Made by a program: the position numbers and the translations under genes. Of a DNA stretch of 49,310 nt, positions 34,265 through 44,385 are shown piece after piece. Each line of letters opens with the position of its first letter. Position 1 is the first letter of the stretch. Origin of the DNA: Methanobacteriota archaeon (GTDB lineage: Archaea; Halobacteriota; Methanomicrobia; Methanomicrobiales; Methanospirillaceae); the NCBI GenBank assembly GCA_029547605.1, contig JAKPPB010000071.1, positions 1-49,310 of the forward strand. The letters are read 5' to 3'. The notes below the pieces were generated by a model. It saw only the letters and a program-made list of their open reading frames with translations, did not search any database and was not told the DNA's origin.

Positions 34265-34357
34265 CTGCCAATCACCCCTTTCGACAGGTGTCGAGGATGT
34301 AGACTTCAAAAACTTAAAAAGTGTTGCCAGGTCCTATCTTGCGACGTATAGCGAATG

Positions 34358-34369
34358 GGGGACGTCCCC
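34358..34369. promoter_or_regulatory. Perfect 12-bp palindrome upstream of ech
   Basis: GGGGACGTCCCC lies between the divergent paralogue 2 and echA, about 105 bp before the echA start and ~40-50 bp after an AT-rich TATA-like aaacttaaaaag (34307-34318). A 6+6 perfect dyad here is a good candidate operator for either unit. No regulator gene is identifiable nearby. Confidence 0.4.
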
Positions 34370-34473
34370 TCACCCGGAGAATGAAAAATGCAATGGTATC
34401 ACCCCTTTCGCGTCAAATTGGAATGATTAATAATGACAGAAATCTAGACTTTACCCCATTCGAGGGCGAGTTT

Positions 34474-36378
34474 ATGATCACACTGCCATTTCTGGTACTC
34501 TTTCCTGCCGTAATCGCCATCCTCCTCCTCCTCGTCTCTGCCGATGCGTGGCGGAGGCTGGTTGTAAAAGCAGGTGCACTCATCATCGGGATTGCGTCCC
34601 TCTACCTCCTGTTCATCACTCCTGAGACCGGGCCGGGATTCTTTCCGGTCGAGTTCGATTCAATCTCGGAGCTGATGTTCCTGGCGGAGATGGTTATTGC
34701 CGCGTTCCTGGTCTACCTTGGTATCAAATACAAGAAATACCTGGCCATCTTCCTGGTTGTCGCACAGGCCGCCCTGCTTGTATACTATGAGAGTCTTGCT
34801 GCGACTGGGACGCATATCGTCCCGAACCTCTTCATCGACCAGTTCTCCCTTATCCTGGCCCTGATCATCGGGATTATTGGAAGTCTCATCTGTGTATATG
34901 CCCTGGGATACATGGCCACCTACCAGGAGCACCACCCCGAAGTGAGGGACCGGAGAAGGACGTTCTTCTTCCTGATGTTCTTCTTCCTCTCATCAATGTT
35001 CGGCCTGGTCTTTTCAGATTTCCTGCCATGGGTCTTCTTCTTCTGGGAGCTCACCACCCTCTGTTCCTTCCTCCTCATCGGATACTCGGGAACAGGAGAA
35101 GCTATCAACAATGCGTTCCTCGCACTGAACATGAACCTGCTCGGAGGAATCGCCTTTGTGGGTGCCCTCCTTTACCTGGCTTTTGTCAGTCCCGGGGGCG
35201 AGCTCCTGAACATCAGCACCCTCATCCATTCAGGCCACATGGTCGCACTGGTTCCGGCTGTCCTGATCGCGTTTGCAGGGATCACCAAGGCGGCGCTCAT
35301 GCCGTTCTCTGCATGGCTCGTCGGGGCAATGGTCGCACCCACCCCTGTCTCGGCGCTCCTGCACTCGAGCACGATGGTAAAGGCCGGTGTCTACATCATC
35401 GTCAGGTTCGCACCCGTCCTGACCGGGACGATGGAGGGGCTCATCATCGGGCTCATTGGCGGGTTCACATTCCTGCTTGCATCCGCAATTGCCATCTCCC
35501 AGAGCAACGCAAAGAAGGTGCTTGCCTATTCTACCATCGCAAACCTTGGCCTCATCGTTGCCTGCGCAGGCGTGGGAACCTACAAACTGGTCTGGGCAGC
35601 GATCCTCCTGATCATCTTCCACGCAATTGCCAAGTCACTCCTCTTCCTCTGTGTTGGCACAGTCGAGCACCGTATCGGCAGCAAGGACATCGAGGACATG
35701 ACCGGCCTGATCGTGCGCATGCCGCATGTGGCCGTCATGATGTTCATAGGCATCGCAGGGATGTTCCTTGCCCCCTTCGGGATGCTGATTTCCAAGTGGG
35801 CTGCGATCGAGGCCTTCATCGAGGCCCAGTTCGGCCTCATCTTCGTCGCCATCCTTGCCTTTGGTGGTTCGATCACGGTCTTTTTCTGGTCGAAATGGAT
35901 GGGGAAGATCATCTCGGTCTGCCCAGTGGCCGCAAAAGTTGAGAACCGGATACCTCAGGAGAAGTGGATTGCGCTTTCGCTTCTGACCGCCATGACAGTG
36001 TTCATATGCCTTGCATTCCCACTCATCTCCTCATACCTCATAGAGCCGTTTGTCCTCTCTGTGTACGGTGCGACCACGCGGCTCTCGCAGGACAACGTCA
36101 CCATCATGGTCATGATGCTCTTCCTCCTGATGATCATGCCATTCTCGCTGCTCTGGTTCAGAAAAGAGAAGAATATCGTCCCTCCCTACATGGCGGGGAG
36201 GCCTGCGACGCCAGACCTCCATTTCCTCGGCTCCATGGGAGTCACACGGCAGGTGACTCTCGGGAATTACTACCTTGAGGAGGTCTTCGGAGAGAAGAGA
36301 CTCTTCATGGCCGGGACAGCCCTCTGTTTCGGGCTTATACTCCTGGTCGGGACACTCACCGCGGGGGTGGCATTATGA
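34474..36378 (+). CDS. echA: Energy-converting hydrogenase subunit A (antiporter-like)
   Basis: A 634-aa membrane protein with about 14-16 helices, homologous to NuoL/HyfB/MrpA. Key features are the WELTTLCSFLLIGY helix, KAALMPFSAWLVGAMVAPTPVSALLHSSTMVKAGVY (proton/Na+ channel Lys and broken helix; residues ~265-300) and HAIAKSLLFLCVGTVEHR. The frame opens at 34321, but the ATG at 34474 (GAGGGCGAG upstream) fits the family start. It moves H+ or Na+ as electrons pass from ferredoxin to H2. Overlaps echB by 4 bp. Confidence 0.93.
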   Translation: MITLPFLVLFPAVIAILLLLVSADAWRRLVVKAGALIIGIASLYLLFITPETGPGFFPVEFDSISELMFLAEMVIAAFLVYLGIKYKKYLAIFLVVAQAALLVYYESLAATGTHIVPNLFIDQFSLILALIIGIIGSLICVYALGYMATYQEHHPEVRDRRRTFFFLMFFFLSSMFGLVFSDFLPWVFFFWELTTLCSFLLIGYSGTGEAINNAFLALNMNLLGGIAFVGALLYLAFVSPGGELLNISTLIHSGHMVALVPAVLIAFAGITKAALMPFSAWLVGAMVAPTPVSALLHSSTMVKAGVYIIVRFAPVLTGTMEGLIIGLIGGFTFLLASAIAISQSNAKKVLAYSTIANLGLIVACAGVGTYKLVWAAILLIIFHAIAKSLLFLCVGTVEHRIGSKDIEDMTGLIVRMPHVAVMMFIGIAGMFLAPFGMLISKWAAIEAFIEAQFGLIFVAILAFGGSITVFFWSKWMGKIISVCPVAAKVENRIPQEKWIALSLLTAMTVFICLAFPLISSYLIEPFVLSVYGATTRLSQDNVTIMVMMLFLLMIMPFSLLWFRKEKNIVPPYMAGRPATPDLHFLGSMGVTRQVTLGNYYLEEVFGEKRLFMAGTALCFGLILLVGTLTAGVAL

Positions 36379-37241
36379 TCCTGCTCGAGTATGCAGTCCT
36401 CTTTATCGTCCTGGCCCCATTCATCGGCGGACTCCTGGCAGGAATCGACCGCAAGCTGACGGCGAGGATGCAGGGGCGTGTCGGCCCGCCGATCCTCCAG
36501 CCCTTCTACGATGTGGGGAAGCTCTTCCAGAAGGAGCAGATCGTGGTGACGCCATCTCAGCACTTCTATGTGCTCTCATACCTCGTCTTCATTGTGGCAA
36601 GCGGAGCCCTCTTCTTTGCGGGGGGAGATCTCCTGCTGGTGATCTTTGCCTTCACCCTCGCCCACATATTCCTGGTGCTGGGCGCCTACTCGTCGTACTC
36701 CCCTTACAGCTTCATCGGTGCCGAGAGGGAGCTGATCCAGATCATCGCTTACGAGCCGATGATTATTCTTGCAGCTGTCGGGATGTACATGGTGACAAAG
36801 AGTTTCTTTGTCTGGGAGATCATGACAAGTTCTCTGCCGCTGATCCTGTATCTGCCCGGAGTCTTCCTCGGGTTCCTTATGGTCCTTACCATCAAGCTCA
36901 GGAAATCCCCCTTCGATCTCTCTACCTCGCACCATGCACACCAGGAGATCGTCAAAGGAGTAACCACAGAGTTCTCCGGCCCGATGCTCGCACGGGTGGA
37001 GATCGCACACTGGTATGAGAACGTCTTCCTGCTGGGGTTCATCTATCTCTTCTTTGCATGGAACCCGCTGGTCGGCATCATCGCCATCATTGTCGCCTAC
37101 CTGCTCGAGATCCTGATAGACAACACCTTCTCCAGAGCCACCTGGAAGTTCACGCTGAAGAGTGCATGGATCATCGCGGGGATGATGGGACTCGTCAATC
37201 TCGGGGTGCTCTATTATCTCTCAGGGGTGGTGCCGGTATGA
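36375..37241 (+). CDS. echB: Energy-converting hydrogenase subunit B (NuoH-like)
   Basis: A 288-aa membrane protein with eight predicted helices. It has the NuoH/HyfC hallmarks: GRVGPPILQPFYDVGKL (first loop), SAERELIQIIAYEPMI-like segment (AERELIQ), and SPFDLSTSHHAHQEIVKG. It anchors the hydrogenase head to the membrane and completes the ion path. Overlaps echC (ATGA at 37238). Confidence 0.95.
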   Translation: MILLEYAVLFIVLAPFIGGLLAGIDRKLTARMQGRVGPPILQPFYDVGKLFQKEQIVVTPSQHFYVLSYLVFIVASGALFFAGGDLLLVIFAFTLAHIFLVLGAYSSYSPYSFIGAERELIQIIAYEPMIILAAVGMYMVTKSFFVWEIMTSSLPLILYLPGVFLGFLMVLTIKLRKSPFDLSTSHHAHQEIVKGVTTEFSGPMLARVEIAHWYENVFLLGFIYLFFAWNPLVGIIAIIVAYLLEILIDNTFSRATWKFTLKSAWIIAGMMGLVNLGVLYYLSGVVPV

Positions 37242-37693
37242 CGCACCTCTCCAAGTCTCCATGGATACTGCATTATGACGCGTCGAGCTGCAACGGGTGC
37301 GACATCGAGGTGCTCGCATGTCTCTCGCCACTCTACGATGTCGAACGGTTCGGGATAATCAACACGGGCAATCCCAAGCACGCCGACGTACTTGTAATTA
37401 CCGGTGGAATCAACGAGCAGAACCGCCAGGTCGTCCAAAACCTCTATAACCAGATGCCTGATCCGAAAGTGGTGGTCGCGGTCGGGATATGCGCCTCAAG
37501 CGGAGGGGTCTTCAGGGAGTGCTACAACGTGGTGGGGGGAATCGACTGCATCATCCCCGTGGACGTCTATGTTCCGGGATGTGCGGCGCGGCCTGAATCG
37601 ATCATAGACGGCATCGTCCGGGCGCTTTCGATCCTCGAGGAGAAGAAGAGGATGCCTGCGCACGGGAGGGCGACTGGGGGAGGTGAGAGATGA
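37238..37693 (+). CDS. echC: Energy-converting hydrogenase small subunit C
   Basis: A 151-aa NuoB-like subunit with one [4Fe-4S] cluster proximal to the NiFe site. Ligands are in SSCNGCDIE, GICASSGG, FREC and YVPGCAARPE. The frame is open upstream to 37058, but the ATG at 37238 overlapping echB is the real start. Short, as in Ech enzymes. Confidence 0.95.
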   Translation: MTHLSKSPWILHYDASSCNGCDIEVLACLSPLYDVERFGIINTGNPKHADVLVITGGINEQNRQVVQNLYNQMPDPKVVVAVGICASSGGVFRECYNVVGGIDCIIPVDVYVPGCAARPESIIDGIVRALSILEEKKRMPAHGRATGGGER

Positions 37694-38070
37694 TTATGGA
37701 CGCAGACCAGACCACCGTGATAGAGCGGGACTACCTGATCGGAAGAGTGGAAGAGTTCAAAAAGCAGGGATACCGGCTGGTGCAGCTGAACTGCACGAAA
37801 GTCGGAGAGACGTATGAGATCAATTATTCCTTTGACCTGGATTATCAGTTCAGGAACCTGAAGATCATGGTGGACGGGCAGACAGAGGTTCCGAGCATTT
37901 CCGGGATTTACTGGGGAGCGTTCATCTATGAGAACGAGATGCACGACCTCTTTGGTATACGGGTTGTAGGAATGAACGTTGACTTTGGCGGAAATCTCTT
38001 CAGGACCGCGAAAAAGAACCCCTTTGCAAATCCCACGTTCAGGGGGGAGGAGCCATGTCCCGGAGAATAA
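37690..38070 (+). CDS. echD: Energy-converting hydrogenase subunit D (NuoC-like)
   Basis: A 126-aa NuoC/30-kDa-like subunit. The C-terminal SGIYWGAFIYENEMHDLFGIR is the family signature. Overlaps echC by 4 bp and echE by 16 bp. Joins the small and large subunits of the peripheral arm; no cofactors. Confidence 0.92.
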   Translation: MIMDADQTTVIERDYLIGRVEEFKKQGYRLVQLNCTKVGETYEINYSFDLDYQFRNLKIMVDGQTEVPSISGIYWGAFIYENEMHDLFGIRVVGMNVDFGGNLFRTAKKNPFANPTFRGEEPCPGE

Positions 38071-39134
38071 TCGTCCCCTTCGGGCCCCAGCACCCTGTGC
38101 TCCCCGAACCTATCCACCTTGACCTGGTGCTCCAGGATGAGCGGGTAGTGGAGGCCATCCCCTCCATCGGGTATATCCACAGGGGCCTCGAGACGCTGGT
38201 CGCAAAACGCGAGTATCCTGAATACGTCTACATCGCCGAGAGGACCTGCGGTATATGCAGTTTCATCCATGGGATGACCTACTGCCAGGCAGTAGAACAG
38301 GTCATGAACCTCGAGGTGCCCGAACGCGCGCTCTATCTCAGGACCATATGGTCTGAATACTCCAGGATGCACTCGCACCTCTTATGGCTCGGGCTCTTTG
38401 CCGACGCCATCGGCTTTGAGAACCTCTTCATGGCGTCGTGGAGATTGCGTGAGTCCGTGCTCGATGTCCTTGAGGAGACCACCGGCGGGCGCGTCATCCA
38501 GGGGAGTTGCAAGGTAGGCGGGGTGAGAAGGGATATTCCAGGTGAGACTCTCGATCGCATGGTCGGCGACCTTGCAGGATTCGAGCGGGACTTCAAGGAG
38601 ATCGCGAATGTCTTCCTTCGCGATGAGTCCATCATCGCCCGCACGCGCGGTGTAGGGGTGCTCTCACATGGTGATGCGTATCACCTGGGGGCGGTGGGGC
38701 CAACTGCCCGTGGAAGCGGAGTGGCCATTGACCTGCGGAAGACCGGATACGCCGCGTATGGGAAGATTCACTTCAAGCCAGTTGTAGAGACCGATGGGGA
38801 TTGCTATGCAAGATGCGCGGTAAGAGTAAAGGAGGTCTTCTCTTCAATTGACATCGTGCGCCAGGCTGCAGCAAAGATCCCTGAAGGAGAGATCGAGGTC
38901 AAGCCAAAAGGAAATCCAAATGGTGAATGCTTCTCCCGCGCCGAGCAACCTCGCGGTGAACTAGTGCACTATGTAAAGGGGGATGGGAGCAGGCACCTTG
39001 TCCGCTCGCGAATCCGGACCCCGACCCTCACGAACGTCCCGCCCCTTGTGAAGATGCTTGCAGGATGTGAGCTTGCCGATGTTCCGGTCATCGTGTTGAG
39101 CATTGACCCCTGTATCGGGTGCATGGAGAGGTGA
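38055..39134 (+). CDS. echE: Energy-converting [NiFe] hydrogenase large subunit E
   Basis: The 359-aa NiFe-site subunit. The two CxxC pairs that hold the nickel are present: RTCGICSFIHG (~residue 62-72) and SIDPCIGCMER at the very C-terminus, so it is a true hydrogenase rather than a Nuo-type relative that has lost the metal. Unlike many NiFe large subunits it ends 3 residues after the last Cys, so no C-terminal cleavage by a maturation protease is expected. FGPQHPVLPEPIHLDL is the usual start. Confidence 0.96.
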   Translation: MSRRIIVPFGPQHPVLPEPIHLDLVLQDERVVEAIPSIGYIHRGLETLVAKREYPEYVYIAERTCGICSFIHGMTYCQAVEQVMNLEVPERALYLRTIWSEYSRMHSHLLWLGLFADAIGFENLFMASWRLRESVLDVLEETTGGRVIQGSCKVGGVRRDIPGETLDRMVGDLAGFERDFKEIANVFLRDESIIARTRGVGVLSHGDAYHLGAVGPTARGSGVAIDLRKTGYAAYGKIHFKPVVETDGDCYARCAVRVKEVFSSIDIVRQAAAKIPEGEIEVKPKGNPNGECFSRAEQPRGELVHYVKGDGSRHLVRSRIRTPTLTNVPPLVKMLAGCELADVPVIVLSIDPCIGCMER

Positions 39135-39141
39135 ACAGATC

Positions 39142-39540
39142 ATGGCATTCTTTGAGATGGCAAAAACCGCGATACTGACCACACTGAAGAGCCCGGCAAC
39201 GAGGAGATACCCGGCGGTATCCGCGAAGGTGGCCGCCATATCACGGGGACGGGTCACGATCGACCCTTCCAGGTGCATCTCATGCGGCATGTGTATGAGA
39301 AAATGCCCATCGGGGGCGATTTGCGTAGTCAAGGACGATAAAACCTGGAGTATCGACCGCCTGAAGTGCGTGGTCTGCAACTGCTGTGTTGAGGTATGCC
39401 CGGCCCATTGCCTGGTCATGGAGACGGGCTATTCCCCCAGCATAACCGTTCACGAGGGTATCGAGTTAGTCCACATTACCTATGTGAAGCCAGAACGCCC
39501 ACCCCGCAAAGAACCGGAAGAGAAGAGCGAGCAGGGGTAA
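39142..39540 (+). CDS. echF: Energy-converting hydrogenase ferredoxin-like subunit F
   Basis: A 132-aa subunit with two [4Fe-4S] binding motifs, CISCGMCMRKCP and CVVCNCCVEVCP, as in EchF/NuoI. It passes electrons from soluble ferredoxin to EchC. Start at ATG 39142 with GAGAGGTGAAC upstream. The C-terminal tail is charged (PRKEPEEKSEQG). Completes the set A-F, so the enzyme should be functional. Confidence 0.95.
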   Translation: MAFFEMAKTAILTTLKSPATRRYPAVSAKVAAISRGRVTIDPSRCISCGMCMRKCPSGAICVVKDDKTWSIDRLKCVVCNCCVEVCPAHCLVMETGYSPSITVHEGIELVHITYVKPERPPRKEPEEKSEQG

Positions 39541-40320: not shown

Positions 40321-40995
40321 TTATCCCTCGCATCGCCTGCGCATCCTCGCTGCGGCGCGGTCGGCGAGCACCAGCGGAAGAGGGAACCGCGTGTCCCTGC
40401 AGCACGCGAGCGTGATCTCTTCGGCCTGCGCAAGCGTGGTCCGGTATCCGGCAGAGACCACGACAGGGACACTCCCCTCACGGGTCCGAAGGATTGTTCC
40501 TACCTGCTCCCCCTCCATCATCAACGGCGAGGAATCTCCCCTCGACTCTCCCGGTTCCCGGGCATGCATCCCCGCCATTTTCCGACCGGCGATGCCAATG
40601 CTCGCGATCTTCAGGAGATATCCAAGATGCGTGGCCAGGCCTGCTCTCCGTGGATGCGCATACCCATGACCATGCACAAGGATGAGATCCGGGGGATCGG
40701 GGAGCAGCGAGAATGCCTCAAGGAGGGGCGGGATCTCCCGGAACGAAAGATACCCTGGGATATAAGGGAACTCAATTGCTCCCCTGGCCTCGACGCGTGA
40801 AAAGAAGTCCAGGTGCGGGTATCCAACGAGTACTACTGCGGCGTATGCGGATGAGACACCGTAACTTATATCCATCCCCCCAACAAGTGCCGGGTTTATA
40901 TCGAAAACGTTCGGATTCTCATCAATTTTTCTTCGGATATCCACTTGGATCCGCCTGGCTTCATCGAGGTCCCCTGGCACATGGAACTGTTCCAT
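40321..40995 (-). CDS. nfi: Endonuclease V (deoxyinosine repair)
   Basis: A 224-aa nuclease that cuts near deoxyinosine in DNA. Motifs are GGMDISYG (catalytic Asp), the wedge YIPGYLSFREIPPLLEA, LILVHGHGYAHPRRAGLATHLG (second Asp replaced by His at the usual DGxG, HGHGYAHPR), and SAGYRTTLAQAEEIT. The usual GxDGxGxAHPR shows GHGYAHPR here: the Asp before GxG is His, which deserves a check because it normally binds the metal. ATG 40995 has GGGTGAGA upstream. Pairs with the HD gene downstream. Confidence 0.9.
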   Translation of the reverse strand: MEQFHVPGDLDEARRIQVDIRRKIDENPNVFDINPALVGGMDISYGVSSAYAAVVLVGYPHLDFFSRVEARGAIEFPYIPGYLSFREIPPLLEAFSLLPDPPDLILVHGHGYAHPRRAGLATHLGYLLKIASIGIAGRKMAGMHAREPGESRGDSSPLMMEGEQVGTILRTREGSVPVVVSAGYRTTLAQAEEITLACCRDTRFPLPLVLADRAAARMRRRCEG

Positions 40996-41134
40996 CTTCT
41001 CACCCGCTGATGACACCTGGCAGCTCTTCTATTCTTCCTGCACGATCCGTTCCTATCGTAAACAGGATACCGCATCTTTCTCCGGAGATAATGCAACCAT
41101 AGCCGGCCCTCATCAACTCTGCGTGCGTTTAGTC

Positions 41135-41142
41135 TTTTATAT
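41135..41142 (+). promoter_or_regulatory. TATA-like box for the HTH-FHA/kinase pair
   Basis: TTTTATAT, 93 bp before the ATG at 41235; start of transcription expected near 41167, followed by two palindromes in the leader. Confidence 0.45.
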
Positions 41143-41175
41143 CGAACTCCTTCTGTGGCAGCCCACCCCAGACTT

Positions 41176-41186
41176 TCCGGTCCGGA
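41176..41186. promoter_or_regulatory. Palindrome TCCGGTCCGGA upstream of the HTH-FHA gene
   Basis: An 11-bp dyad centred on one base, close to the predicted transcription start. Candidate operator. Confidence 0.35.
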
Positions 41187-41211
41187 GAATATTTTAGTTC
41201 CTGCAGTTGCA

Positions 41212-41223
41212 TTCTATATAGAA
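41212..41223. promoter_or_regulatory. Palindrome TTCTATATAGAA next to the ribosome site
   Basis: A perfect 12-bp dyad ending just before the GGTGGAGGTGG ribosome site of the HTH-FHA gene. It could be an autoregulatory operator for the winged-helix product. It is too close to the ATG to act as the TATA box. Confidence 0.4.
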
Positions 41224-41234
41224 GGTGGAGGTGG

Positions 41235-42026
41235 ATGACCAGGGAACCCCAGGACGCAGCCAGGACCGTTGTACTCGATGAGATACCTGACTATTACCAC
41301 GAGCTCTCCGAGTACCTGGAAGTCCTCTCCAACAGCCAGCGCCTTAAAATCCTCAAGATGCTTGAGAGGAAACCCCGCGACGTGCGCATGATTGCGTCCG
41401 AGATATCCACTAGCTACGAGAACACGAAGAAGCACCTGGACAAGCTGATGGGGATGGGTCTCATAAGGAAGGAAGTGGGACTCGGCCAGCAGACATCGAA
41501 AGGCGTGCACCCTGTCTGGAAATACTCGCTTGTTCCGGGGGCAATGGAGGCGGTTGTACGGAACCTGGGCATCTTCTCCAACATGCGGATCAAGATGACT
41601 GATACAGACCTCAAGAGGCGTCTCGATGAGGTCAGGCATGCAATCGAGGGAGATATCACGGGCAACCACCCTATGCTCATCCTCCTTGGAGGGCCAGATG
41701 ATGGGAAGTGTTTCTGCATCCCGGAGACCGGTGTTCGCATCGGGCGGGTAGATCCCAGTGTGGCAGGACCAAACGAGAATGAGGGGGATGTGATACTATC
41801 CCGCGAGTACACGTCTGTCAGCAGGGTGAGCAAGCCGCATGCAGTCTTCAGGAAGGAGGGGACCAAGTGGCTGTTAGAGGACAGGGGAAGCACGGGGGGT
41901 ACCTACCTGAACAGCAACCCCCTGCAGAAGCGGGTCCCTGTGGAGGTATGTGACGGGGACTTGATCGAGCTTGCAAAGGGAACCGCGGGGGCCCGCCTGC
42001 TTCTCATCCTCCCAGGCAGGAAGTAA
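41235..42026 (+). CDS. Winged-helix regulator with C-terminal FHA domain
   Basis: A 263-aa DNA-binding protein. Residues ~20-105 form an ArsR-like winged helix (LSNSQRLKILKMLERKPRDV, then a recognition-helix stretch ISTSYENTKKHLDKL and wing). Residues ~150-260 form a forkhead-associated domain with the phosphothreonine-binding landmarks in order: VRIGR, SRVSKPHAVF and DRGSTGGTYLN. FHA domains bind phospho-Thr, so a Ser/Thr kinase should control this protein or its partners. The next gene, 28 bp downstream, is such a kinase. GGAGGTGG site before the ATG. Confidence 0.9.
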   Translation: MTREPQDAARTVVLDEIPDYYHELSEYLEVLSNSQRLKILKMLERKPRDVRMIASEISTSYENTKKHLDKLMGMGLIRKEVGLGQQTSKGVHPVWKYSLVPGAMEAVVRNLGIFSNMRIKMTDTDLKRRLDEVRHAIEGDITGNHPMLILLGGPDDGKCFCIPETGVRIGRVDPSVAGPNENEGDVILSREYTSVSRVSKPHAVFRKEGTKWLLEDRGSTGGTYLNSNPLQKRVPVEVCDGDLIELAKGTAGARLLLILPGRK

Positions 42027-42054
42027 CCTGGACTGTCCCGTTCATTCGCGTTCC

Positions 42055-44385
42055 ATGTACCACTCACACCTGCGCTTTCCTGTTTTCATCCTCATAATCG
42101 CCCTCATTTCCCTGCCTGCATCTTCATTTGCCGCTGATACGTACACCATCAGAGCCACTGCAGGGACAGGTGGGAAGATCTCCCCATCAGGCGATGTGTC
42201 AGTCTTGAAAGGCAGCGACCAGCTCTTCGTGATCGAGCCATTCCAGGGCTACCGGATAGAGAACGTGATGGTGGACCAGAGGTCACTCGGGGCGATCCCC
42301 CTTTACACGTTCAACAAGGTCAATACCAATCATGTCATCTCTGCAACTTTCATGCCGTTGTTCGGTTCGCTGCAGGTTCATTCGAGACCTGGGGGGGCAG
42401 ATGTATATATCGATAATATCTTTTACGGGACAACCGATCCCGGCGGACCAGTGACATTCTCGCGAATCAGTCCCGGCATGCATTCCATCCGCATACTCCT
42501 TGCTGGATTCCAGGAATTCAGGACCGAAGCACAGGTAAACGAGGGACAGACGACGATACTCCCAACCGCAGTGCTTGTCCCTGTTCCGACCTCTCCCACC
42601 ACTACTGTCACCACCACTGTCCCTACCACCTCTCCCACCACTACTGTCACCACCACCGCCCCTACCACCTCTCCCACCACTACTGTCACCACCACTGCCC
42701 CTACCACCTCTCCCACCACTACTGTCACCACCACTGTCCCTACCACCTCTCCCACCACTACTGTCACCACCACTATCCCTACCACCTCTCCCACCACTAC
42801 TGCCACCACCACTGTCCCTACCACCTCTCCCACCACTACTGCCACCACCACTGCCCCTACCACCTCTCCCACAACTACTGCCATTCCCGGAACCCCCACT
42901 ATTATTGTACCAATCTCTGAACAGACCCCACGCCCCAATTTCACGGTCCCGACAACGCCAGACAACGGCACGATGCCTCCTTCCTCACCGATAATTCCAG
43001 GAGTTTTCATTATACTCACAGCGGGTGGCCTGGCAACACTCCTCATCACCAGGGACGTGTTCGCTTCACGCCGCCAGAGCGGGGTTCCTTTCTTCATGCG
43101 CCTCGTGCCCTTTGCACTCTTTGCCATCCCCTGCATCGCGATGGCGGTAGTCCTCCACTGGTACCTCACTTACCCCGCGGAGAGTGGAGGAGGCCTCAAT
43201 CCCGAACTGGTTGCAGTGGCGATGCCCATTGTCATTTACATGATCCTCTCATCGATCGCACTGATGATCGGGGCCATCTTCTCGTGGCCGTTCCGGGGGA
43301 CGCTGAAGGTCCATACCGTGGCAGGGATCATACTGATCTTCCTTGCGTTCATGGGTCTCATCACCGGCGACCCTTCACGGCGGTTCATCACCGGTGTCAT
43401 GCTCCTTGCCGGGATACTCTCCACTCTTGCAGCCCGGTGGCAGGACGAGACATTCCAGGCCGGCCAGGAAGAAGGACGAGGTCCCGCGGAAACGCGCAGT
43501 GGCCCCTCCGAGGGGCAGGCTGAACCCCGCACACCCGCTATTGCCGCAAACGGGATGTTCCCCCAGGAGCTCACCGAGAAGTATCAGGTGATGGAATTTG
43601 TCGGTTCAGGTGGGCTCGCCAGGGTCTACAGGGCAAGAAACCTCCAGTCAGGGCAGGAGGTCGCACTGAAGATACCCCTGCAATCGGACGAGAAAACAGG
43701 CAGATCATTTCTGAAGGAGATCGTGGGGTGGGAAGGACTGAACCATGAGAATATCGTACGGGTGAGCGGGGTCAATATCCTTCCCGTCCCTTACGTCGAG
43801 ATGGAGTATGTCCCAAAGACCCTTGCCGATGTCCACAAGCCCCTCCCGGTCAGATCTGCCGCACGGTTCTGCCGTGACGTAGCGAGGGGCCTCCTCTTTG
43901 CCCATGAAAGGGGGATTATCCACCGGGACATAAAGCCTCATAATATCCTCGTAACGAATGAAGGAGTACCCAAGATCACCGACTGGGGGATGAGCAAGGT
44001 AATGGGGGTCACCGGGATGCCCACCATCACAGGCTTCTCCCTCGCGTATGCTGCCCCCGAGCAGCTGGCACCCCAGACATTCGGAGAGACCGACCAGCGG
44101 ACAGATATCTACCAGATAGGGTGCGTACTGTATGAGTTGCTTACAGGAACGGTCCCCTTCCCAGGCAACGATATGGTTAAGGTCAGTGCACTCATCCTCT
44201 CGGAGGTGCCAAAGCGTCCTTCGATCTTGAATCCCGATGCCCTGCCACTCGACACGATTGTCATGCGCTGCCTTGAGAAGAGGCCCGACGACCGATATCA
44301 GAATGTCCGGGACCTGATTGGGGACCTCGACGCATTCCTCCTTCGCGAAGATACTGAGGACCGCTATCACATTTTCGAGGATTAA
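42055..44385 (+). CDS. Membrane Ser/Thr protein kinase with PEGA sensor and Thr/Pro stalk
   Basis: A 776-aa protein. Signal peptide (MYHSHLRFPVFILIIALISL to ~28); an InlB-like glycine-rich repeat (TGGKISPSGDVSVLKGSD, ~40-95); a PEGA domain (GSLQVHSRPGGADVYIDNI onward, ~103-170); eight 13-residue Thr/Pro repeats (~178-280); about four to five membrane helices (~320-465); and a cytoplasmic Hanks-type kinase (~508-776). Kinase residues are GSGGLARVY (Gly loop), K539 (VALKI), HRDIKPHN (H623-N630), D643 in DWG (not DFG) and AAPEQL. It reads as an outside sensor driving an inside kinase. The upstream HTH-FHA gene is its likely target. The frame is open to 41971; the signal peptide selects ATG 42055. 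Confidence 0.9.
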   Translation: MYHSHLRFPVFILIIALISLPASSFAADTYTIRATAGTGGKISPSGDVSVLKGSDQLFVIEPFQGYRIENVMVDQRSLGAIPLYTFNKVNTNHVISATFMPLFGSLQVHSRPGGADVYIDNIFYGTTDPGGPVTFSRISPGMHSIRILLAGFQEFRTEAQVNEGQTTILPTAVLVPVPTSPTTTVTTTVPTTSPTTTVTTTAPTTSPTTTVTTTAPTTSPTTTVTTTVPTTSPTTTVTTTIPTTSPTTTATTTVPTTSPTTTATTTAPTTSPTTTAIPGTPTIIVPISEQTPRPNFTVPTTPDNGTMPPSSPIIPGVFIILTAGGLATLLITRDVFASRRQSGVPFFMRLVPFALFAIPCIAMAVVLHWYLTYPAESGGGLNPELVAVAMPIVIYMILSSIALMIGAIFSWPFRGTLKVHTVAGIILIFLAFMGLITGDPSRRFITGVMLLAGILSTLAARWQDETFQAGQEEGRGPAETRSGPSEGQAEPRTPAIAANGMFPQELTEKYQVMEFVGSGGLARVYRARNLQSGQEVALKIPLQSDEKTGRSFLKEIVGWEGLNHENIVRVSGVNILPVPYVEMEYVPKTLADVHKPLPVRSAARFCRDVARGLLFAHERGIIHRDIKPHNILVTNEGVPKITDWGMSKVMGVTGMPTITGFSLAYAAPEQLAPQTFGETDQRTDIYQIGCVLYELLTGTVPFPGNDMVKVSALILSEVPKRPSILNPDALPLDTIVMRCLEKRPDDRYQNVRDLIGDLDAFLLREDTEDRYHIFED
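42585..42896 (+). repeat. Eight tandem 39-bp repeats encoding VPTTSPTTTVTTT
   Basis: In-frame repeats of 39 bp inside the kinase gene. Units are nearly identical at DNA level (VPTT/APTT/IPTT SPTTT VTTT/ATTT), with the first and last degenerate. They encode a Thr/Pro stalk of the kind usually O-glycosylated outside the cell. Near-identity suggests recent slippage, so copy number may vary between strains. Confidence 0.85.

Follow-up and report, generated by a model that had tools for sequence, protein, structure and literature searches.

A membrane Ser/Thr kinase paired with a winged helix-FHA regulator in Methanomicrobiales, a candidate phosphothreonine signalling system

The window analyzed here is the whole stretch of 49,310 nucleotides (nt) at positions 1 to 49,310 of contig JAKPPB010000071.1 (assembly GCA_029547605.1), from an archaeon of the Methanospirillaceae. 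It encodes on its forward strand a pair of adjacent genes: a winged helix-FHA regulator of 263 amino acids (gene 1, 41235–42026) and, downstream of it, a membrane Ser/Thr (Hanks) kinase of 776 amino acids (gene 2, 42055–44385). We set the start of the kinase at the ATG at 42055, 28 nt past the stop of gene 1; the TTG at 41971, with which the mechanically called open reading frame begins, was ruled out because it overlaps gene 1, which leaves the ATG as the likely start. The original prediction for this DNA had proposed an ArsR-like winged helix fused to an FHA domain and encoded beside a kinase, and Pfam searches confirmed both the genes and their domains.

In the regulator, the ArsR-like winged helix (HTH_5, residues 34–79; 41334–41471, forward strand) scores 30.6 bits against a Pfam cut-off of 22, and the FHA domain (residues 168–246; 41736–41972, forward strand), with G170-R171, S199, H202, and N226 as its ligand residues, scores 43.8 bits against a cut-off of 20.7. 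Relatives of the winged helix are 2p4w, of the ArsR family, by sequence profile, and 2oqg by fold. The metalloregulators of the ArsR/SmtB type carry a Cys metal site in the winged helix; the corresponding model NF033788 reached 30.9 bits in the regulator, below its cut-off of 55, and no Cys occurs before residue 159, so that the winged helix is without a Cys metal site. A Pfam search of the regulator up to E 0.1 gave no match to the OmpR-type DNA-binding or BTA domains, HTH_5 being found instead, and the OdhI equivalog model NF041660 (NCBIfam) gave 26 bits against a cut-off of 200.

The kinase, on the same strand, begins with a predicted signal/anchor segment (residues 8–26; 42076–42132), recognized by hydropathy, and continues with a weak InlB B-repeat-like segment (42142–42354), a PEGA domain (residues 104–167; 42364–42555; 44.5 bits, cut-off 20.8), and a Thr/Pro stalk (42589–42880) encoded by 7.5 copies of a 39-bp tandem repeat. 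These are followed by a cluster of membrane segments (residues about 313–464; 42991–43446), four of them over the hydropathy threshold and a fifth placed by eye, and by a PknB-like Hanks kinase domain (residues 510–748; 43582–44298; Pkinase, 142.2 bits, cut-off 31.7). Pfam, the tandem repeat, and hydropathy together bear out that a sensor PEGA domain, a Thr/Pro stalk, membrane segments, and a Hanks kinase occur in one protein; the InlB-like part that had also been assigned to the sensor is weak, its PF18998 match of 18.6 bits lying under the cut-off of 23.6. Given an odd number of membrane segments after an external PEGA domain, the kinase domain should lie inside the cell. Its catalytic residues are present (K539, H-R-D625, N630, D643-W-G, and A-P-E) and PknB is the nearest solved structure; the protein falls outside the Stk1/PknB PASTA kinases as modeled by NF033483 (224.8 bits, cut-off 450), with a PEGA domain present and no match to PASTA.

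To what extent the two genes occur together, which had been set beforehand as a test of the prediction and which turned out to support it, was assessed in the window's genome and 100 relatives (101 in all), counting regulator places at E<1e-20 and dropping weaker rows. Homologues of the regulator were found at 120 places in 77 genomes (the window's own included); the other 24 have no clear homologue of gene 1, and the pair is therefore not universal in the order. Compared with the PF00069 matches listed (150 places), at least 110 of the 120 regulator places are followed within 5 kb by a kinase domain encoded on the same strand, corresponding to 109 distinct kinases. This conservation at homologous places excludes chance as the reason for the pairing. 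Nine of the ten places left unpaired among the PF00069 matches listed lie within about 2 kb of the downstream contig end, and in one genome (G055:C63, L075) the regulator is convergent with a kinase gene ending about 0.1 kb away. In the host genome (128 contigs, 100% complete), exactly two FHA proteins pass the Pfam cut-off, as do exactly two Hanks kinases, and these form two paralogous pairs; two more kinase-like matches fall below the cut-off. Its second pair (G000:C33:7118-9561; L038, L168) consists of a regulator 39% identical to that of the window and a kinase that has a short stretch of Thr and Pro but gives no PEGA match.

The distances between regulators and those between their kinases are correlated (Mantel r 0.76 over 38 pairs, reached by 0 of 2000 permutations); two loci with mis-cut kinase rows (L048, L049) and one with two regulators (L065) were left out of this test. 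As shared ancestry alone gives some correlation of distances, a better control is the exchange of partners within genomes that encode two pairs, where the true partners fit better in four of five cases. Judged by their sequences, the pairs co-evolve. The pattern HxD-[KR]PxN-DxG-[AS]PE fits 40 of 41 kinases, the other being a row that was not read (L059), and all 40 kinases read have D-W-G in place of D-F-G, as in the window. The sensor parts are far less uniform: among those of ten kinases searched against Pfam, one matched PEGA, two NosD, and seven nothing, and the number of hydrophobic segments per kinase ranges from one to seven. The kinase domain and the regulator are constant and the sensor is varied, a pattern of fixed output with exchangeable inputs.

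A search of the phylum with the regulator profile found matches in 64 of 392 genomes, all belonging to the window's order, the methane-producing Methanomicrobiales. The titles of 80 of 140 GTDB relatives name genera of this order (Methanolinea, Methanoregula, Methanoculleus, Methanofollis, and Methanomicrobium) or higher ranks of the group, with the exception of four labeled only as Euryarchaeota archaeon and one (L112) labeled as Thermoplasmata. FHA domains are rare in the rest of the phylum: a match occurs in 74 genomes, ten of them outside the order. In another Halobacteriota genome (L160), genes for a zinc-ribbon FHA protein, a vWA protein, a kinase-FHA protein, and a PP2C phosphatase were seen by eye to adjoin one another; by the same inspection this is a different arrangement, another phosphothreonine cluster.

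The N-terminal tail of the regulator contains one residue, Thr11 (codon 41265–41267, forward strand), that we propose as phosphosite and as ligand of the FHA domain. It is invariant in 52 of 52 aligned members and in 57 of 57 of a second, partly overlapping set, in which the second regulator copy of L065 is doubtful, its Thr lying upstream of the nearest Met; residues 1–10 are variable across members. The three positions after Thr11 hold I, V, or L in 50 (+1), 49 (+2), and 46 (+3) of the 52 members, and acidic residues often come next. Among the 80 GTDB loci a Thr is found at the tail index in 76, a crude count with insertions uncorrected, and by eye every tail has a Thr followed by hydrophobic residues. 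In the AlphaFold model of the regulator (predicted template modeling score 0.52; mean predicted local distance difference test, pLDDT, 74.3), residues 1–17 have a pLDDT under 50. On the side of the putative reader, G170, R171, H202, and N226 are kept in 57 of 57 rows, and position 199 is S in 47 and T in 10. Aligned with VIA-align, the FHA portion of the model has its best matches in DgcB of Bdellovibrio (Z 15.6), OdhI (14.7), and GarA (14.7), with a root-mean-square deviation of 1.8–1.9 over 99–100 residues; since MDC1, ArnA, and EmbR are among those that score within 1 Z of the latter two, the ranking is only suggestive. The regulator thus has a conserved Thr in a predicted-disordered N-terminal tail, with hydrophobic residues after it, as in self-binding FHA proteins of the GarA/OdhI/DgcB type. 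Given the invariance of Thr11, the predicted disorder, the motif, and an FHA fold near DgcB, OdhI, and GarA, Thr11 is likely the phosphosite, and the FHA domain likely reads it, either within one chain or between the two chains of a dimer.

The upstream palindromes of the original prediction fared unevenly: they are weak in the window and convincing only upstream of the regulator in sister lineages. Inspection by eye of seven upstream regions, L148 and six from a single clade, gave a palindrome that is matched at 12 or more of 16 positions in 25 of 81 upstream regions; in the remainder of these loci, 38 of 3028 tiles reach this score. Besides the seven seeds, the 25 include 18 other regions; 16 of the 18 come from outside the seed clade, and 12 of these 16 carry the title Methanoregula. 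As the genomes are related, the counts are not independent. In the form GGTT-N9-AACC (17 bp), 26 sites were found in 20 of 104 upstream stretches (including a few genes fetched twice), other spacings from 3 to 15 giving 0–2 each, and in six promoters tandem copies stand exactly 21 bp apart. A genome-wide search, which covered the tandem form, found it exactly at five places in the 101 genomes: four precede a regulator gene by about 0.1 kb (G022, G037, G044, and G050), and the fifth (L170:1501-1538, on G040:C31) lies between the gene of a DUF4349 protein and a divergent gene, which makes this locus a possible regulon member. With one mismatch, the tandem form occurs at ten further places, two at regulator genes (G040:C6 and G060:C34) and eight elsewhere; a reversed control pattern matched in two genomes. 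The putative recognition helix contains a segment, TSYENTKKH, that is nearly invariant across the family; despite this, in the regions upstream of the regulator genes (L105-L150) only some lineages show the operator. Near the start codon of the window copy lies TTCTATATAGAA, found among the upstream regions compared only in the window and two sisters, the proteins of which are 95–98% identical.

A phosphatase of the PP2C type is the candidate for the reverse reaction. PP2C_2 matches at E 0.001 or better occur in 80 of the 101 genomes, and within 3 kb of a regulator at 13 of the 120 places, in 12 genomes and always on the same strand, where 0.5 would be expected; a single PP2C counts for both of the regulator places in G018. 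Another three genomes have a PP2C at 105–135 nt after a kinase match, on a contig without a regulator. The host genome has a single PP2C_2 protein over the cut-off (G000:C9:73334-74113; L159:2835-3614), encoded off the window contig next to what look by eye like dnaJ and a methyltransferase gene; this protein is a candidate partner phosphatase. In the G018 locus (G018:C23, L065), one strand encodes two regulators, the second of them very diverged (26% identical), together with the PP2C match and one kinase.

The neighbors of the pair in the window (nine proteins) were surveyed with Pfam. Genes at 34321–39540, upstream of the pair, encode Proton_antipo, NADHdh, Complex1_49kDa/NiFe hydrogenase, and ferredoxin domains and probably constitute the operon of an energy-converting membrane hydrogenase. 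An Endonuclease V gene (40321–41016, reverse strand) is divergent from the pair, for which reason the intergenic region 41017–41234 may serve both. A reading of the locus as a defense system was rejected: the PADLOC matches are to kinase models (PD-T4-6 and others) and to Csa3/CasR-like models over the helix-turn-helix, and the neighbors were covered by the Pfam survey.

On the sequence evidence, we think with moderate confidence that the two genes encode a dedicated sensor kinase and its regulator, signaling via phosphothreonine in a path that would run from Thr11 through the FHA domain to altered DNA binding. The external PEGA domain on its Thr/Pro stalk would sense a cue at the surface or envelope and change the activity of the cytoplasmic PknB-like kinase, which would autophosphorylate, and on which the regulator's FHA domain may dock, by analogy with GarA and PknB. 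The kinase would then phosphorylate Thr11 in the flexible regulator tail, as the invariance of the residue, the predicted disorder, and the motif suggest, and the FHA domain would bind phosphorylated Thr11, either within its own subunit or on the partner, in the manner of DgcB, OdhI, and GarA, with a consequent change in DNA binding by the ArsR-like winged helix, presumably a dimer. One target would be the promoter of the operon itself, in Methanoregula and allies putatively through the GGTT-N9-AACC site. As gene order suggests, the switch may be reset by the PP2C phosphatase, whose gene adjoins the pair in some lineages and lies apart from it in the host genome. The regulator and the kinase domain stay together, with a sensor that varies between PEGA, NosD/beta-helix, short stalks, and membrane segments. 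We advance more tentatively, and rate at somewhat less than even, the extended proposal that the Methanomicrobiales possess a family of such cognate, co-evolving pairs comparable to two-component systems, in which exchangeable sensors would act through one tail phosphothreonine gripped in a dimer to switch a tandem operator with a spacing of 21 bp.

Several observations weigh against the reading of the two genes as a dedicated pair that signals via phosphothreonine. The model does not place the Thr11 tail, and its position with respect to the FHA cleft is unreadable because of the low pLDDT there. An Asn in the NGT loop is usual in FHA domains, common yet not universal; in the regulator it is replaced by G221 (53 of 57 rows), and affinity for phosphothreonine is for this reason not assured. 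Seven of the 40 kinases read have HLD or HCD instead of HRD, and the exchange of partners fails in the fifth genome (L074/L077). GGTT-N9-AACC is absent from the window copy, where the best match, 10 of 16, is at chance level; only L148 among the rows titled Methanoculleus and only L087 among those titled Methanolinea reach 11 of 16. No PP2C_2 match was found in 12 of the 77 regulator-bearing genomes, and in most genomes the PP2C lies away from the pair, as in the host. It should be noted that the proximity of the PP2C concerns just 12 genomes and that the palindrome was derived from seven seed rows, both of which slightly lower our confidence.

Some of the same evidence can be accommodated differently. 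In an arrangement like that of EmbR, the FHA domain would bind an autophosphorylated Thr of the kinase, in the activation loop or juxtamembrane, and thereby hold the regulator at the membrane or present other sites, Thr11 having another role. EmbR indeed needs its FHA domain for phosphorylation by PknH (PMC4601284, in the portion accessible), PknB is the closest solved kinase, and in the activation loop of 30 of the 40 kinases read a Thr precedes the conserved G[FY] by at most five residues. This Thr is, however, less conserved than Thr11, and recruitment would leave unexplained why a single tail Thr is invariant amid varying neighbors; we consider this arrangement unlikely. Less likely again, in our view, is that the regulator mainly controls its own operon, and hence the level of the kinase, the main substrates of which would be elsewhere: the pair would then be a feedback node and not a linear path. 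That four of the five exact tandem operators stand at the regulator gene itself fits such a node, against which speaks the one at the DUF4349 gene and its divergent neighbor; it is to be borne in mind that these counts come from the tandem form. That the pair is a relic of gene neighborhood with no direct functional link is very improbable in view of the at least 110 of 120 places conserved, the one more that is convergent, and the co-evolution of the partners.

If the proposed pair of dedicated kinase and regulator holds, it would make a short signaling route from the cell surface to a gene, and it suggests that the logic of two-component systems (cognate pairs, varied sensors, and fixed output) was reached a second time with different chemistry. 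To our knowledge, few archaeal Hanks kinases have a known partner. Hanks kinases themselves are contained in many archaea (PMC7226565, in the part available). The present analysis names such a partner and, with it, a likely phosphosite and reader domain as well as candidates for the operator and the phosphatase. With all of these named at once, a complete phosphothreonine path of an archaeon, from the membrane to a promoter, can be tested using a few purified proteins.

Among known systems, the pair resembles EmbR–PknH of Mycobacterium tuberculosis, encoded by neighboring genes, in which a winged helix regulator with a C-terminal FHA domain is under a Hanks kinase. EmbR has a DNA-binding domain of the OmpR type, and its phosphorylation stimulates interaction with promoters (PMC4601284, as far as accessible). 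Unlike EmbR, with its OmpR-type and BTA domains, the regulator of the window is of the ArsR type, has no BTA match, and carries an invariant tail Thr. This last feature, a tail Thr with an FHA domain, is shared with GarA, OdhI, and DgcB, the best structural matches. GarA and OdhI act on other proteins, namely metabolic enzymes, and DgcB carries a GGDEF domain; unlike the window regulator, none of the three is a DNA-binding regulator. The FHA domains of DgcB, OdhI, and GarA bind their own phosphorylated N-terminal tails, the +3 position being a determinant in DgcB (PMC6733907, in the part available). A winged helix together with a tail Thr is found in Rv2175c, the partner of PknL, in which Thr9 of a disordered N-terminal tail is the sole phosphorylated residue and its replacement by Asp abolishes DNA binding; it differs in that the accessible portion of the source mentions no FHA domain for Rv2175c (PMC4601284).

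As to archaea, the FHA domain of ArnA (5a8i) from Sulfolobus is a structural match to that of the regulator (Z 14.5). Work of Duan and He from 2011 reportedly concerns, by its title, an archaeal FHA protein that binds a promoter and is controlled by phosphorylation. ArnA and ArnB of Sulfolobus are an archaeal case in which an FHA protein takes part in controlling gene expression through phosphorylation (PMC4858521, in the portion accessible). They differ from the pair described here in that the partner of the FHA protein is a vWA protein, no winged helix is named in that portion of the source, and they are not described as a kinase–regulator gene pair (PMC4858521). In the open literature searched, outside of which most subscription papers fall, we recognized no description of an archaeal pair of a winged helix-FHA protein and a kinase. 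EmbR–PknH, Rv2175c–PknL, and GarA, OdhI, and DgcB each hold one part of the plan, and EmbR–PknH is its bacterial precedent; new here is an invariant Thr11 in a variable tail predicted to be disordered, joined to an FHA fold nearest to those of DgcB, OdhI, and GarA.

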